Assembly (NCBI GenBank): GCA_031289255.1
Contig: JAITPW010000003.1
Span: 1 to 32,574 of the forward strand
Length of the DNA: 32,574 nt
DNA from: Bacilli bacterium
Lineage (GTDB): Bacteria > Bacillota_I > Bacilli_A > JAJDGJ01
Direction of reading: 5' to 3'
Below, piece by piece: positions 1 to 8,156 of this stretch (the stretch's first letter is position 1; each line of letters begins with the position of its first letter). A program made the position numbers and the translations under genes. The notes under the pieces are model-generated. The model saw nothing but the letters and a program-made list of their open reading frames with translations. It did no database searches and was not told where the DNA came from.

Positions 1-651
1 TGCCTTGATTATAAAGGCATTATTGAACTTGCCAAAAATTTCCCAAGCAAAAAAGCAAACCGCTTTATTGAGTGGTTCACATACAGCGACGAAACCATTG
101 ACGGCAAGAGCAAGTCCAAGGCTTACGCGCTTTTCGACAGTTCGTTGCTCGATACGCTTGATGTCGGCAGCATTAAAGGTTTGCAGCAGATTCATGGCTA
201 TCTATTTGGCGGGCTGTACGACTTTGCGGGACAAGTCCGCGAGCTGAATATCGCAAAGGGTGGTTTTCGTTTTGCGCCCGTACAGTTCTTGGATAACACG
301 CTGAAAACCATCGAAGCAATGCCCGAGACGACCTTTGACGAAATCGCGGACAAATATGCCGAGATGAATGTCGCTCACCCCTTTATGGAGGGCAACGGTC
401 GAAGCACCCGCATTTGGCTTGACTTGATTTTGAAAAAGAACCTCAAACTTTGCGTTGACTGGAGTCGGATAGACAAGAAAAGCTATCTTGACGCAATGCG
501 TGAAAGCACGATGAACACAGATAAAATCAAGGCGCTTTTGAAATCCGCCCTGACGGATAAGATAAACGACCGCGAGGTCTTTATGGAAGGCGTTGACTAT
601 TCCTACTACTACGAGCAGGAAGATGATATAACAGGAGGGAATGTGGAGTGA
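1..651 (+). CDS. Fic/DOC family protein, 5' end outside the window (partial)
   Basis: Frame 1 is open from base 1 (CLDYKGIIELAKNFPSKKANRFIEWFTYSDETIDGKSKSKAYALFDSS...). It contains the Fic motif HPFMEGNGRSTR (HxFx[D/E]GNGRxxR). Stops at TGA 649-651. Confidence 0.93.
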   Translation, partial: CLDYKGIIELAKNFPSKKANRFIEWFTYSDETIDGKSKSKAYALFDSSLLDTLDVGSIKGLQQIHGYLFGGLYDFAGQVRELNIAKGGFRFAPVQFLDNTLKTIEAMPETTFDEIADKYAEMNVAHPFMEGNGRSTRIWLDLILKKNLKLCVDWSRIDKKSYLDAMRESTMNTDKIKALLKSALTDKINDREVFMEGVDYSYYYEQEDDITGGNVE

Positions 652-3600
652 ATACATTTAATAGCGAACGCGAATTTGAGGATGCCCTTATTAAGGTGTT
701 GTTCACCAAGGGTTGGGAGTCGGAAGTTCTCAAAAACCCCTCAGAGCAAGACCTCATAGACAACTGGGCTAAAATCCTCTTCGATAACAACCGCGAACAA
801 GATCGCCTGAACAACCAACCGTTGACGGCGGGCGAAATGCAGCAGATTATCGAGCAAATCACCACGCTGCGAACGCCGCTGAAACTCAACGGCTTTATCA
901 ACGGCAAGACGGTATCCATCAATCGTGACAATCCTGATGATGAACTGCACTTCGGTCTTGAGGTCAGCCTCAAAATTTACGACCGCCGTGAAATCGCCGC
1001 AGGTCAGAGCCGCTATCAGATTGCGCAGCAACCGAAGTTTCCCACCCGCGGCATTCTAAATGACCGTCGTGGCGACTTGATGTTGCTCATCAACGGAATG
1101 CCGGTCATTCATATCGAACTGAAAAAGAGCGGTATCCCCGTGTCACAAGCGGCAAATCAAATTGAGAAATATGCCCGCGAAGGCATATTCAGCGGATTAT
1201 TTGCCCTCGTACAGGTGTTCGTTGCTATGAACCCGGACGAAACGCTCTATTTCGCTAACCCCGGACTCGACGGCAAGTTTAACCCTGATTTCTATTTTCA
1301 TTGGGCGGATTTCAATAACGAGCCTGTGAATGATTGGAAAAGTATCGCATCGTACTTCTTGTCCATTCCTATGGCACACCAGATTATCGGATTTTACACC
1401 GTACCCGACGACAGCGACGGTATTTTGAAGGTCATGCGCAGTTATCAGTATTACGCCGCCTCTGCCATTTCCGACAAGGTATCAAAAACCAAGTGGGATG
1501 AAAAAGACCATCTTTACGGCGGCTATGTGTGGCATACGACCGGCAGCGGCAAGACGATGACCAGCTTCAAGTCCGCACAACTTATCGCCAATAGCAAGGA
1601 TGCCGACAAGGTTATCTTTTTGATGGACAGAATCGAACTCGGAACTCAGAGCCTGAAAGAGTATAAAGGCTTTGCCGAAGAGAATGACGACGTGCAGGCT
1701 ACCGAAAATACGCAGGTGCTTATCGCGAAGTTGAAAAACCCGAACCCTGCTAATACTCTGATTGTCACGTCCATTCAGAAAATGAGCAACATCAAAGAGG
1801 ACGATGGCATGAACGCCAAAGACCTCGAAATTATGACGGGTAAGCGCATCGTATTCATCGTGGACGAAGCGCATCGTTCCACTTTTGGCAATATGCTTAT
1901 CACGATAAAAAACACTTTCCCCGGAGCTATCTTCTTTGGCTTTACAGGGACACCTATCTATAAGGAGAACGAACGTAAAGGAAACACGACCGCCACCGTT
2001 TTCGGCGACGAACTGCATCGCTACTCCATCGCCGACGGTATTCGGGATAAAAACGTGCTGGGTTTTGACCCCTATATGGTTACGACATTCAATGACAGAG
2101 ACTTACGCACCGCCGTTGCTTTGGAAGAGGCAAGAGCGACGACGGTCTTAGAGGCTATCGCCGACCCCGCTAAATCCGCAATCTACTATAATTTTATGGA
2201 TTCCTCCAAAGTGAAGATGGCGGGCTACTATGACAATGTAAAAACTTACGTTAAAGGCATCGAGGACTATCTACCCGCCACCCAGTACCACCAAGACATA
2301 CATCGAGAAATGGTGGTGAAGGATATTTTGGCGGGCTGGACACAATACAGCCACGGCGAGAAATTCCACGCCATTTTTGCGACTTCAAGCATTCCCGAAG
2401 CCATAGCCTATTATCGCATTATTAAGGCGCAATGTCCCACCCTTAAAGTCACAGCCCTTTTCGACCCGAACATCGATAATGGCGATGGTGCAACCACGAC
2501 ATTCAAAGAAGCCGGACTTGTTGAAATCGTCACTGACTATAACGCCCGCTATGAGCAGACCTTTGACCTTGCAAATCACGCCAAGTTCAAAAAGGACGTG
2601 GCGGCACGACTTGCGCACAAAGACCAGTATAAACGCATTGAGTCCCAGTCTGAAAAACAAATAGGATTGCTTATCGTTGTCGATCAGATGTTGACGGGCT
2701 TTGATTCCAAGTGGGTCAATACGCTGTATATGGACAAAATCCTGCGGTTCGAAAACATCATTCAGGCGTTCTCCCGCACTAACCGTCTGTTTGGACCCGA
2801 TAAGCCTTTCGGGACAATCCTCTATTACCGCAAGCCACACACGATGACACGCCTTATCGACGAGGCGGTGGCGTTATATTCTGGCAACAGACCCGCCGGG
2901 CTGTTTGTAGGGCGACTTCACGAGAACCTGAACGCCCTCAATGAGATATTTGCGGAAATAAAAAAGGTATTTGAAGACGCGGGCGTTCCCAATTTTGAGA
3001 AAAACCCTGACGAAATAGAAGCCTGCGGTATGTTCGCCAATCTGTTCAAGACACTTAACGAGCATCTTGAAGCCGCCGAGATTCAGGGCTTCAAGTGGGA
3101 AACATCTGAATATAGTTTCAAAGACGAACATGGGCATAACTACACCATTACCGTATACTTTGACCAGACCGCATATCTTATTTTGGCACAGCGTTATAAA
3201 GAGCTTTTCAGCGGTAAAGGCGAGGGCGACGGCAATGAAGATGTTCCTTTTGAAATTGATGGGCATCTGACCGAGATTGACACAGGCAAAATCGATACCG
3301 ATTATATGAATGCTCGCTTTACTAAATACCTGCGGGCGCTTGTGGAAGGCGATGCGGTAGAGCAAGCGCTTAACGACCTGCATAAAACATTTGCCACGCT
3401 AACACAGGAAGAGCAAAAATACGCCAATATCTTCTTGCATGATATTCAGCGCGGCGAAGTAAGCCCCGAAGAAAGTAAGACCCTGCGCGACTACATTACG
3501 GAATATCAGGCGAAAGCCAAAGCCGACCAAATCCATAAGGTATCGAGCATTTTCGGGCTTGATGAAGCGCAGTTGCGTGAGATGATGAGCCTAAAGCTCA

Positions 3601-3782
3601 CTGATAGCAACATCAACGAATATAATCAGTATGGCAAGCTGAAAGACACGGCGGATCGAGAAAAGGTAAAAGCCCACTTTGAACAGCAACAAGGTGAAAC
3701 GCTATCGCCAAAAAAGATAAACATTGAATTTGATAAATGCTTGCGTAAATTTTTGTTGGAAGGCGAATTTGATACGGAATAG
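648..3782 (+). CDS. hsdR: Type I restriction enzyme R subunit (HsdR)
   Basis: 1044 aa; nuclease-like GDLMLLINGMPVIHIELKKSG, Walker A HTTGSGKTMTS, VDEAHRS box, helicase region. GTG start overlaps the Fic stop (GTGA). Confidence 0.96.
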   Translation: MNTFNSEREFEDALIKVLFTKGWESEVLKNPSEQDLIDNWAKILFDNNREQDRLNNQPLTAGEMQQIIEQITTLRTPLKLNGFINGKTVSINRDNPDDELHFGLEVSLKIYDRREIAAGQSRYQIAQQPKFPTRGILNDRRGDLMLLINGMPVIHIELKKSGIPVSQAANQIEKYAREGIFSGLFALVQVFVAMNPDETLYFANPGLDGKFNPDFYFHWADFNNEPVNDWKSIASYFLSIPMAHQIIGFYTVPDDSDGILKVMRSYQYYAASAISDKVSKTKWDEKDHLYGGYVWHTTGSGKTMTSFKSAQLIANSKDADKVIFLMDRIELGTQSLKEYKGFAEENDDVQATENTQVLIAKLKNPNPANTLIVTSIQKMSNIKEDDGMNAKDLEIMTGKRIVFIVDEAHRSTFGNMLITIKNTFPGAIFFGFTGTPIYKENERKGNTTATVFGDELHRYSIADGIRDKNVLGFDPYMVTTFNDRDLRTAVALEEARATTVLEAIADPAKSAIYYNFMDSSKVKMAGYYDNVKTYVKGIEDYLPATQYHQDIHREMVVKDILAGWTQYSHGEKFHAIFATSSIPEAIAYYRIIKAQCPTLKVTALFDPNIDNGDGATTTFKEAGLVEIVTDYNARYEQTFDLANHAKFKKDVAARLAHKDQYKRIESQSEKQIGLLIVVDQMLTGFDSKWVNTLYMDKILRFENIIQAFSRTNRLFGPDKPFGTILYYRKPHTMTRLIDEAVALYSGNRPAGLFVGRLHENLNALNEIFAEIKKVFEDAGVPNFEKNPDEIEACGMFANLFKTLNEHLEAAEIQGFKWETSEYSFKDEHGHNYTITVYFDQTAYLILAQRYKELFSGKGEGDGNEDVPFEIDGHLTEIDTGKIDTDYMNARFTKYLRALVEGDAVEQALNDLHKTFATLTQEEQKYANIFLHDIQRGEVSPEESKTLRDYITEYQAKAKADQIHKVSSIFGLDEAQLREMMSLKLTDSNINEYNQYGKLKDTADREKVKAHFEQQQGETLSPKKINIEFDKCLRKFLLEGEFDTE

Positions 3783-4836: not shown

Positions 4837-6090
4837 TTGAGTTTGCCAAACAGTACTGAAGGACTCCAAAAAGAGTATGAAGAAGATGGATTTTTATTTG
4901 AAATATTTGATAATGATACTTTTGCTACTATTGTTGTTAATTTTGATGATATAACAGGAGATAAAGAAACTCTTGGTATTGAAAATTCAACCAAGTTAAT
5001 TACTGAATTTAAAGATAATGGATATATTGATGATTATGGGAAGGCTACTGATTGCTTAAGGATGGCAATCAAAAATGAGGATATTAGAGTCAGTGAACAG
5101 TTTAAAGATATTGTTCCCCAGATTTTAGAAGTTACTAATTCAAAAACCAAGAGTCTTAAGATTAAAAATGCGTCAGAAAAAGTAGAAGTTAAAGTTATTA
5201 AAGAGGCTTTGCCAGAAAACTTTATAAAACTTTGGGATAAGATTAAATATAAAACTACTTATCGTATTGATTTTAATTCAGAAGAGCTTATATCTAATGC
5301 TGTTAATGGTACTTCTTCTCTTGTGGGCATTAAAGATATACAAACTCATAGGGCAACTTATTTATATAAGAGAAGTGCCATTAAAATGGATGTAGCAGGT
5401 ATTGTTGCTAAACTTGTTGGCGAGTATAATACAAGTTTGACACCTAATGCTAGATATCAATTACCGGATATTATTACTTACTTACAAAACGAGACTAGTT
5501 TAACACGAAAGACTATTGTTGCAATTTTACAATCAACAACTAACTTAGATCAGTTCAAAAATAATCCTTTAATTTATATGAATCAAGCAGCTAAGATTAT
5601 TAATAAACATAAAAACCAATTAATTGTAGATGGTATTAAATATACTAAAATTGATGATGCTTATGAACAATTTTTGTTTACATCAGAAACAGTAAATGCA
5701 TATTTAGGCGTGAATGGCAACTCAGTTGAAGCTGATAAAAATAAAGCTAAGACTTTGTACGAGTATATTGTGACAGATTCTGAAGTAGAACGAGAATTTG
5801 CTCGTAAAGCAGAACTAGATTAAAAAGTTAAGTTTTATATAAAAATGCCAAATTGGTTCAAAATCCGTACTCCGCTTGGAACTTATAATCCAGATTGGGC
5901 AATGCTTTATGAAGAAGACGATGAACAAACATTATACTTTATTATCGAAACTAAAGGTGATGTCAATGATGATCAGCTACGACCTCATGAATCTGCAAAA
6001 ATTAAAGCAGAAAAAAAACATTTTGAAGCTATAAGTACCGATATTAAATTTAAATGTGTGAAGAATGAGGAAGATATTCGAGCTAATTAA
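4837..6090 (+). pseudogene. Type III restriction enzyme Res subunit, C-terminal remnant with in-frame TAA
   Basis: ORFs 4837-5823 (GLQKEYEEDG..., DKIKYKTTYRIDFNSEEL...EREFARKAELD) and 5845-6090 (PNWFKIRTPLGTYNPDWAMLYEEDDEQTLYFIIETKGD) are in the same frame, separated only by TAA 5821-5823. Helicase half absent. Confidence 0.85.
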
Positions 6091-6679: not shown

Positions 6680-7948
6680 CTAATTTTTTAAGCAGCCAAG
6701 TGGCACAACCCATACACTATTTTTTAATTGATAAGCATACTCAGTACCGGTTAATACCATAAGGAATGAAGGCTCGTTCATTTTTTTTGTATCCACAATC
6801 GACTTCAACTTTAATAGATTTTGGGCAGCTGATTCTATTTCAAAGGCGCCTAGTTTTATTTCCACTGCCCCCCATCGACCATCGGCAAGCTGAATTATAG
6901 CATCGATTTCAAGATTATTTTTATCGCGATAATGATAAACTGCACCATCGATACTATCAGCATAAATTCTTAAATCTCTAATGCAAAGCGATTCAAACAG
7001 AAAACCAAATGTATTGAGATCGGCAAGGAGTCGTTTTGGTGTTGCCCGTAGGGAAGCTGCTGCAAGGGAAGGATCGGTAAAATGACGTTTTGCAGTTGTT
7101 CTGATAGCCGTTTTAGAACGTAATTTTGCACTCCAAGCGGGCAGATCTTCAATGACATGAATTTTTTTAAGAGCTGCAATATATTGATTGACTGTAGCTT
7201 GTGATAAGGACTCATCATTAATAATTAAATCATTAAGAATGGTTGCTGTTCTAGCTTCATTAGAAATATTACGTGAAAGAGAGCGAATGAGAGCTTTGAC
7301 TCGATCGGGATTTTTTTCAACTCCATCAGCTTTAGATATATCTTCATTTGCAACAGCTTCAAGATAATCACTGGCAATGCTTATAGCAATCTTTTCACTC
7401 TGTTCTAAAGCTGCTTCAGGCCAACCACCACGATTAATAGTAAAGGCTAATTTCTCAATGGTTAGGCTGGATTTACCATTAATACTGGTTATACCATCAA
7501 ATAAATCACGTAGCGAAACTTCTCCATTAGATTCACCAGATTCAAATAGTGACATGGTACGCATTTTCATTCTAGCAATGCGGCCTGTCCCGGTGTGCAT
7601 ATCTTCAGTACGAGTTGGTATAACTGATCCGGTTAGAATGAATTGTCCATGTAATCGTCGTTTATCTACTGCAAAACGAACAGCATTCCATAGTTCTGGG
7701 GCTACTTGCCACTCATCCAACAGTCTTGGTGTTTCACCTTCTAATAATAGAGATGGTTTTGTTTGAGCAATTAAGATATTAGCTTTAGTATTGTCGGGAT
7801 CTTGCATATATAAAACACTCTTTGCCATTTCTTCACCTGAACTTGTTTTGCCACACCATTTAGGTCCTTCGATTAAAACTGCGCCTTTTGCAAGAAGCAA
7901 AAGAGCTAGTTTTTCATCAGAAATTCGTTTTAAATAATTTGAATTCAT
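6680..7948 (-). CDS. AAA ATP-binding protein, DUF4143 type
   Basis: 422 aa; Walker A GPKWCGKTS, LLDEWQVAPELWNAVRFAVD..FILTGS, C-terminal nuclease-like DAIIQLADGRWGAVEIKLG; RBS AGGTG upstream of ATG. Confidence 0.9.
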   Translation of the reverse strand: MNSNYLKRISDEKLALLLLAKGAVLIEGPKWCGKTSSGEEMAKSVLYMQDPDNTKANILIAQTKPSLLLEGETPRLLDEWQVAPELWNAVRFAVDKRRLHGQFILTGSVIPTRTEDMHTGTGRIARMKMRTMSLFESGESNGEVSLRDLFDGITSINGKSSLTIEKLAFTINRGGWPEAALEQSEKIAISIASDYLEAVANEDISKADGVEKNPDRVKALIRSLSRNISNEARTATILNDLIINDESLSQATVNQYIAALKKIHVIEDLPAWSAKLRSKTAIRTTAKRHFTDPSLAAASLRATPKRLLADLNTFGFLFESLCIRDLRIYADSIDGAVYHYRDKNNLEIDAIIQLADGRWGAVEIKLGAFEIESAAQNLLKLKSIVDTKKMNEPSFLMVLTGTEYAYQLKNSVWVVPLGCLKN

Positions 7949-7964
7949 ATTATCACCTGTTATT

Positions 7965-7993
7965 AGTATAATCTAAACTATCAACTTTGGCAA
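7965..7993 (-). promoter_or_regulatory. Promoter of the DUF4143 ATPase gene
   Basis: Minus strand: TTGCCA (7993-7988), 17-bp spacer, TATACT (7970-7965), about 17 nt before the ATG. Confidence 0.55.
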
Positions 7994-8034
7994 TTGTTTA
8001 CTATCAACTTTGGCGGATATTTACTATTGATTTC
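7977..8034. repeat. 23-bp period direct repeats (2 exact cores, 1 degenerate) upstream of the ATPase
   Basis: ACTATCAACTTTGGC at 7977-7991 and 8000-8014, degenerate ACTATTGATTTC at 8023-8034; starts spaced exactly 23 bp. Confidence 0.85.
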
Positions 8035-8156
8035 TTTATTAGATTTTTATAGTATTAGTTTGTTTCGTTTTAAAGATATTGATAATACTAAGTTGTTTGG
8101 AAATGCTAAACAACTAAGCATAAAGAGAGAATAATTACTTATTTTTATAATTAATT

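Follow-up and report, generated by a model that had tools for sequence, protein, structure and literature searches.

The tandem repeat that precedes the ATPase gene in the 32,574-nucleotide stretch of DNA analyzed here (the window) is probably an operator array, bound and autoregulated by the very ATPase-nuclease in front of which it lies, a reading to which we give a probability of about 0.75. Contact of the ATPase with the array is strongly supported by covariation between the protein and the repeat unit, from which we infer physical binding, and cooperativity, repression, and a defense trigger would come as further steps of the same model.

Results

A 23-bp tandem repeat at the promoter of the ATPase gene

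The ATG of the window ATPase lies at position 7948 on the minus strand. Upstream, two copies of ACTATCAACTTTGGC at 7977-7991 and 8000-8014 are spaced by exactly 23 bp, confirming the pair of identical 15-nt cores described in a previous sequence-only reading. Read on the minus strand, where the unit is GCCAAAGTTGATAGTAAACAATT-like, the array consists of the promoter-proximal unit 1 (GCCAAAGTTGATAGTTTAGATTA, 7969-7991), with a conserved footprint in its first 14 to 15 nt, of unit 2 (GCCAAAGTTGATAGTAAACAATT, 7992-8014), and of a degenerate unit 3 (AAAGAAATCAATAGT, 8015-8037); the core of this third copy, also reported earlier, is indeed in register at 8023, though weak on its own (8/15 identical). 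As had been proposed, the proximal copy lies over the -35 box: the minus-strand hexamer TTGCCA (7988-7993) is partly made from unit 1, begins 2 nt ahead of the first G of the unit, and is followed, after a 17-bp spacer, by the -10 hexamer TATACT (7965-7970). Within the 200-bp upstream region, the tandem score of the window was reached in 2 of 3000 dinucleotide shuffles, and no further exact copy of the 13-mer core of the repeat was found in the 1.21-Mb genome.

The window ATPase and its predicted domains

The gene (6680-7948, minus strand) encodes an AAA_14-DUF4143 ATPase of 422 amino acids; no other DUF4143 gene was found in this genome. Both Pfam domains score over the gathering score (AAA_14, 41.6 bits; DUF4143, 116.6 bits), and the PADLOC profile PDC-S01 (PDLC04790) matches the protein over its full length (residues 1-420, E=1.3e-62) and is the best match for distant members with 23-bp arrays as well. 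The secondary structure of the AlphaFold2 model (62 sequences, mean pLDDT 93.9) was read as an AAA+ domain followed by a winged helix and a PD-(D/E)XK domain. The predicted recognition helix of the winged helix spans residues 250-262 (7163-7201, minus strand), with residue 251 encoded at 7196-7198, and the predicted PD-(D/E)XK core spans residues 335-365 (6854-6946, minus strand), with the hairpin residue 343 encoded at 6920-6922. Among 165 genes, the Walker residues K34 and D78/E79 are invariant, as are the nuclease-type residues D349, E363, and K365, which lie on beta strands of the model; this D...ExK motif on the expected strands makes the protein a putative PD-(D/E)XK nuclease. Residue 343, which covaries with the DNA as described below, is six residues away from D349. 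A sequence search of the PDB gave no match. Foldseek retrieved 2qen, a Walker-type ATPase of P. abyssi (TM 0.44), and the archaeal Orc1/Cdc6 on origin DNA (2qby), to the chains of which the whole-chain TM was 0.21 to 0.28, short of a whole-chain match.

Defense-type neighbors, a type I HsdR and a Fic protein matching the PDC-S04 profile, are encoded in the same 8 kb of the window as the ATPase (145-3782 and 4837-6090); by eye, 4837-6090 resembles a broken restriction-type gene, with 4837-5823 devoid of a Pfam match.

The 23-bp pitch is conserved in the PDC-S01 clade

Homologues were drawn from plasmids, phage records, 80 genome contigs, and viral contigs, of bacteria and archaea. The search for a periodic repeat upstream of orthologues that the sequence-only reading had suggested was run, and a 23-bp period was found ahead of nearly all close homologues. 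In 95 of 97 homologues, the upstream tandem period that scored best was 23 or 46, and 23-bp units were visible on inspection in the remaining two (L053 and L101), compared with 194/4850 shuffles (4%) and 109/3273 control windows (3%). In a second, separate set drawn from 295 Bacillota genomes, 23 or 46 was again the best period in nearly all true members, genomes using TGA as a sense codon included, with L154 as the exception; the repeat was mostly absent from the more distant DUF4143 genes of this set. The sequence of the unit varies from gene to gene and its pitch is constant. A 23-bp array characterizes the PDC-S01 (PDLC04790) clade as a whole.

In a second DUF4143 clade, arrays with a pitch of 32 to 34 bp precede 18 of 20 genes (65/1000 shuffles) and, in six other genomes, 25 of 29 genes, whereas no consistent tandem was found in two further DUF4143 clades. 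The pitch of the array thus belongs to the protein clade, since other DUF4143 clades have another pitch or none. The earlier reading had underestimated how general such arrays are, in the PDC-S01 clade and, at 32 to 34 bp, in the second clade. A covariation analysis of 33 genes from the 33-bp clade, aligned in a crude register, showed no clear peak. Examples of the 32- to 34-bp arrays are found in L262, L238, L218, and L269-L298, and genome G299 has many such paralogues with different arrays. In another DUF4143 clade, the promoters of L223, L243, and L265 carry inverted repeats instead of a consistent tandem array.

Unit structure, copy number, and promoter phase

The unit consensus across loci is GCCAAA-TNNCNN-AATAAAATTTC. 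Copy-to-copy identity is 0.76 to 0.95 at unit positions 1-14 and 0.39 to 0.63 at positions 15-23, in a register taken from a profile with GCCAA as its seed, a choice that could make positions 1-5 look sharper. On these alignments, the unit is bipartite, a GCCAAA-like part and then a variable core, with a footprint of ~14 bp and a 9-bp spacer. Arrays comprise 2 to 15 units, mostly 3 or 4, the long ones having 11 to 15, and the orientation of the unit relative to the gene is identical in 167 of 174. Promoter phase was scored in the 55 loci with a sigma-70-like promoter, and all 55 arrays sit at a promoter. Counted from the last unit, the -35 box begins at -2 in 17 loci, window included, and at +19 to +21 in 22, where the unit ends just upstream; modulo 23, 44 of the 55 promoters fall within 3 of the 23 phases, a lock between the -35 box and the phase of the repeat.

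Two residues of the ATPase covary with two parts of the unit

Among all protein segments, 236-255 had the top partial correlation with the unit core. In a ranking of 9660 residue-base pairs by mutual information, residue 251 with unit positions 11 and 12 came first and second, and residue 343 with position 2 came third; in the independent set alone, the former pairs ranked 4 and 2, and residue 343 with position 1 ranked first. Sister pairs (72 independent) placed residue 251 first of 320 for changes at unit positions 11-12 (p=1e-9) and residue 343 second of 320 for changes at positions 1-3, while the crossed combinations ranked 93 (251 with positions 1-3) and 96 (343 with positions 11-12), a double dissociation of the two residues.

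The resulting rules are chemically sensible: at positions 11-12, K251 goes with G and D/E251 with C, and at positions 1-3, K343 goes with GCC. CC at positions 2-3 was present in 55/55 discovery genes with K343 and in 3/32 with other residues. The three rules were replicated in 65 non-redundant genes, each less than 80% identical to any discovery gene (p=3e-6, 2e-5, and 8e-5). The nearest relatives of the window offer a natural swap of the two half-sites. L023, 80% identical to the window protein, keeps K343 and the GCCAAAGT half, with residue 251 changed from A to V and a changed core; L022 has the same V251 and CAAAAG core as L023, with K343 changed to A and GCC to GAT. Residue 251 of the window protein itself is alanine, a class with too few members for a rule. 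On sequence grounds, the covariation may also be compatible with an indirect link between the ATPase and the repeat.

Private units and stray arrays

In genomes with at least two members, each paralogue has a different unit, down to two tandem paralogues with their own array each (L080), and nearly identical orthologues have the same or nearly the same unit.

Arrays were also seen away from ATPase genes. In L076, a second array (6761-6834), with a unit of the same kind as the ATPase's own, lies ~1.5 kb past the end of the ATPase gene and fronts an unrelated gene, whose promoter may thus be a second regulated one. Orphan 23-bp arrays that lack an adjoining ATPase gene were seen at L060:413-553 and L017:833-900 and in L302 and L303, and their units differ from that of the neighboring ATPase, where such an ATPase exists. 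Since there are arrays without an adjoining ATPase gene, the array may be more than an operator. Four viral contigs (L334, L339, L340, and L372) carry non-coding PDC-S01-like arrays without the gene, which could be decoys, remnants, or chance.

A link with phage replication origins was rejected: (GCCAAA N17)x3 occurred in 51 viral stretches, versus 59 for a 22-bp control and 56 for the reversed motif, hence no enrichment. Many of the 51 stretches, of which two examples were read, look like iterons within the coding sequence of phage replication genes; L337, L358, and other viral contigs have GCCAAA repeats at 23-bp pitch within genes resembling replication initiators. The window's own double unit was absent from the viral contigs. 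An RNA-based (CRISPR-like) reading was set aside, as arrays positioned on the predicted promoter or ahead of it should not be transcribed.

Discussion

A proposed model of autoregulation by the array-bound ATPase

We propose a model in which each protomer would read one unit with two domains: residue 343, in the beta-hairpin of the PD-(D/E)XK domain, would contact the GCC-side half, and residue 251, at the N-terminal end of the recognition helix of the winged helix, the variable core. Protomers would lie side by side at the fixed 23-bp pitch (~2.2 turns), on 2 to 15 units and usually on 3 or 4, with AAA+ contacts probably helping their alignment on the array. Array-bound protomers would cover or abut the -35/-10 region and repress the gene, keeping a potentially harmful nuclease at a low level, and loss of the oligomer, e.g., by a change of ATP state or by infection, would switch the nuclease on. 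Each gene may have drifted to its own array-protein pair, and paralogues in one genome would therefore escape cross-regulation.

Several other readings of the repeat have to be weighed against this model. Chance or neutral slippage comes to mind since tandem duplications are frequent in AT-rich intergenic DNA; however, the sequence changes at a fixed 23-bp pitch, neighboring DUF4143 clades have other pitches or none, and the conservation of the pitch across phyla already refutes this explanation, to which we give virtually no weight. As binder of the repeat, the sequence-only reading had named the ATPase itself or a trans-acting factor, and the former is favored by the replicated covariation of residues 251 and 343. 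A separate regulator with the ATPase as a passenger would be a common arrangement, and one relative (L015) does have an HTH gene just upstream, but no regulator gene common to the annotated loci was seen, and the units are gene specific and covary with two residues of the ATPase, one of which opens the predicted recognition helix. We hold such a regulator to be very improbable.

If the ATPase is the binder, it could conversely be recruited ahead of the -35 box and activate the promoter of its own gene, as the 22 promoters with offsets of +19 to +21 would allow; in the 17 loci with offset -2, the last unit overlaps the -35 box, and binding there should block RNA polymerase, which makes activation rather unlikely. 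A possible, albeit unlikely, alternative is that the array serves as a self-marker or holding site and not as an operator only, with an inactive AAA+ nuclease parked on it that would act upon loss, disturbance, or competition of the array, in a guard or addiction-like manner. The invariance of D349, E363, and K365 together with the proximity of the DNA-covarying hairpin to D349, arrays of 11 to 15 units that exceed the need of a simple operator, and the existence of orphan arrays all speak for parking. Nevertheless, the strict phase lock of the -35 box is best explained by control of transcription. A further hypothesis, joining operator and holding site, could be that DUF4143 ATPases form a large family of self-addressed single-protein systems, in which each gene would have a private array as its address, read by the two-domain code, and the array oligomer would both silence the gene and hold the nuclease, the alarm being its loss or disturbance and not the recognition of phage DNA; taken as a whole, we regard this hypothesis as doubtful.

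Significance and comparison with known systems

PDC-S01 has been described as an ATPase fused to the PD-(D/E)XK superfamily and reported as the fourth most common defense system across all prokaryotes, most such candidates awaiting experimental validation (PMC12988326). This published architecture fits the window protein, an ATPase with a PD-(D/E)XK domain (PMC12988326). No mention of an operator array or of a DNA specificity of PDC-S01 was found in the open-access literature that was covered. For practically every member of the PDC-S01 clade, there is now a predicted DNA ligand next to the gene itself, together with a recognition code of two residues, and binding, regulation, and nuclease activation are therefore directly testable. 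Moreover, the pitch of the array (23 versus 32 to 34 bp) provides a rule for telling DUF4143 clades apart, and the arrays with their ATPases might supply many orthogonal repressor-operator pairs.

The iteron arrays of plasmids and phages consist of short direct repeats, spaced by about two helical turns, to which winged-helix Rep initiators bind that are encoded by the neighboring gene and autoregulated. The window array resembles them in the type and spacing of its repeats and in its place beside the gene of a winged-helix protein, but nothing points to a role in replication, the promoter at which it sits serves one ATPase-nuclease gene, and one DNA contact of the ATPase apparently comes from the nuclease-like domain. 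With Orc1/Cdc6, the window ATPase shares an AAA+ domain followed by a winged helix; it differs from Orc1/Cdc6 and related proteins by a whole-chain TM of 0.21 to 0.44, by the added PD-(D/E)XK domain, and by sites that are tandem promoter repeats. In autoregulated toxin-antitoxin systems and restriction-modification controllers, as in the model proposed here, a potentially harmful enzyme is kept low by cooperative binding to an operator, which is read by a DNA-binding part of the system. Unlike these controllers, PDC-S01 has the ATPase, the putative reader, and the nuclease-type domain in one protein, and its putative operator sequence is specific to each gene at a constant pitch.
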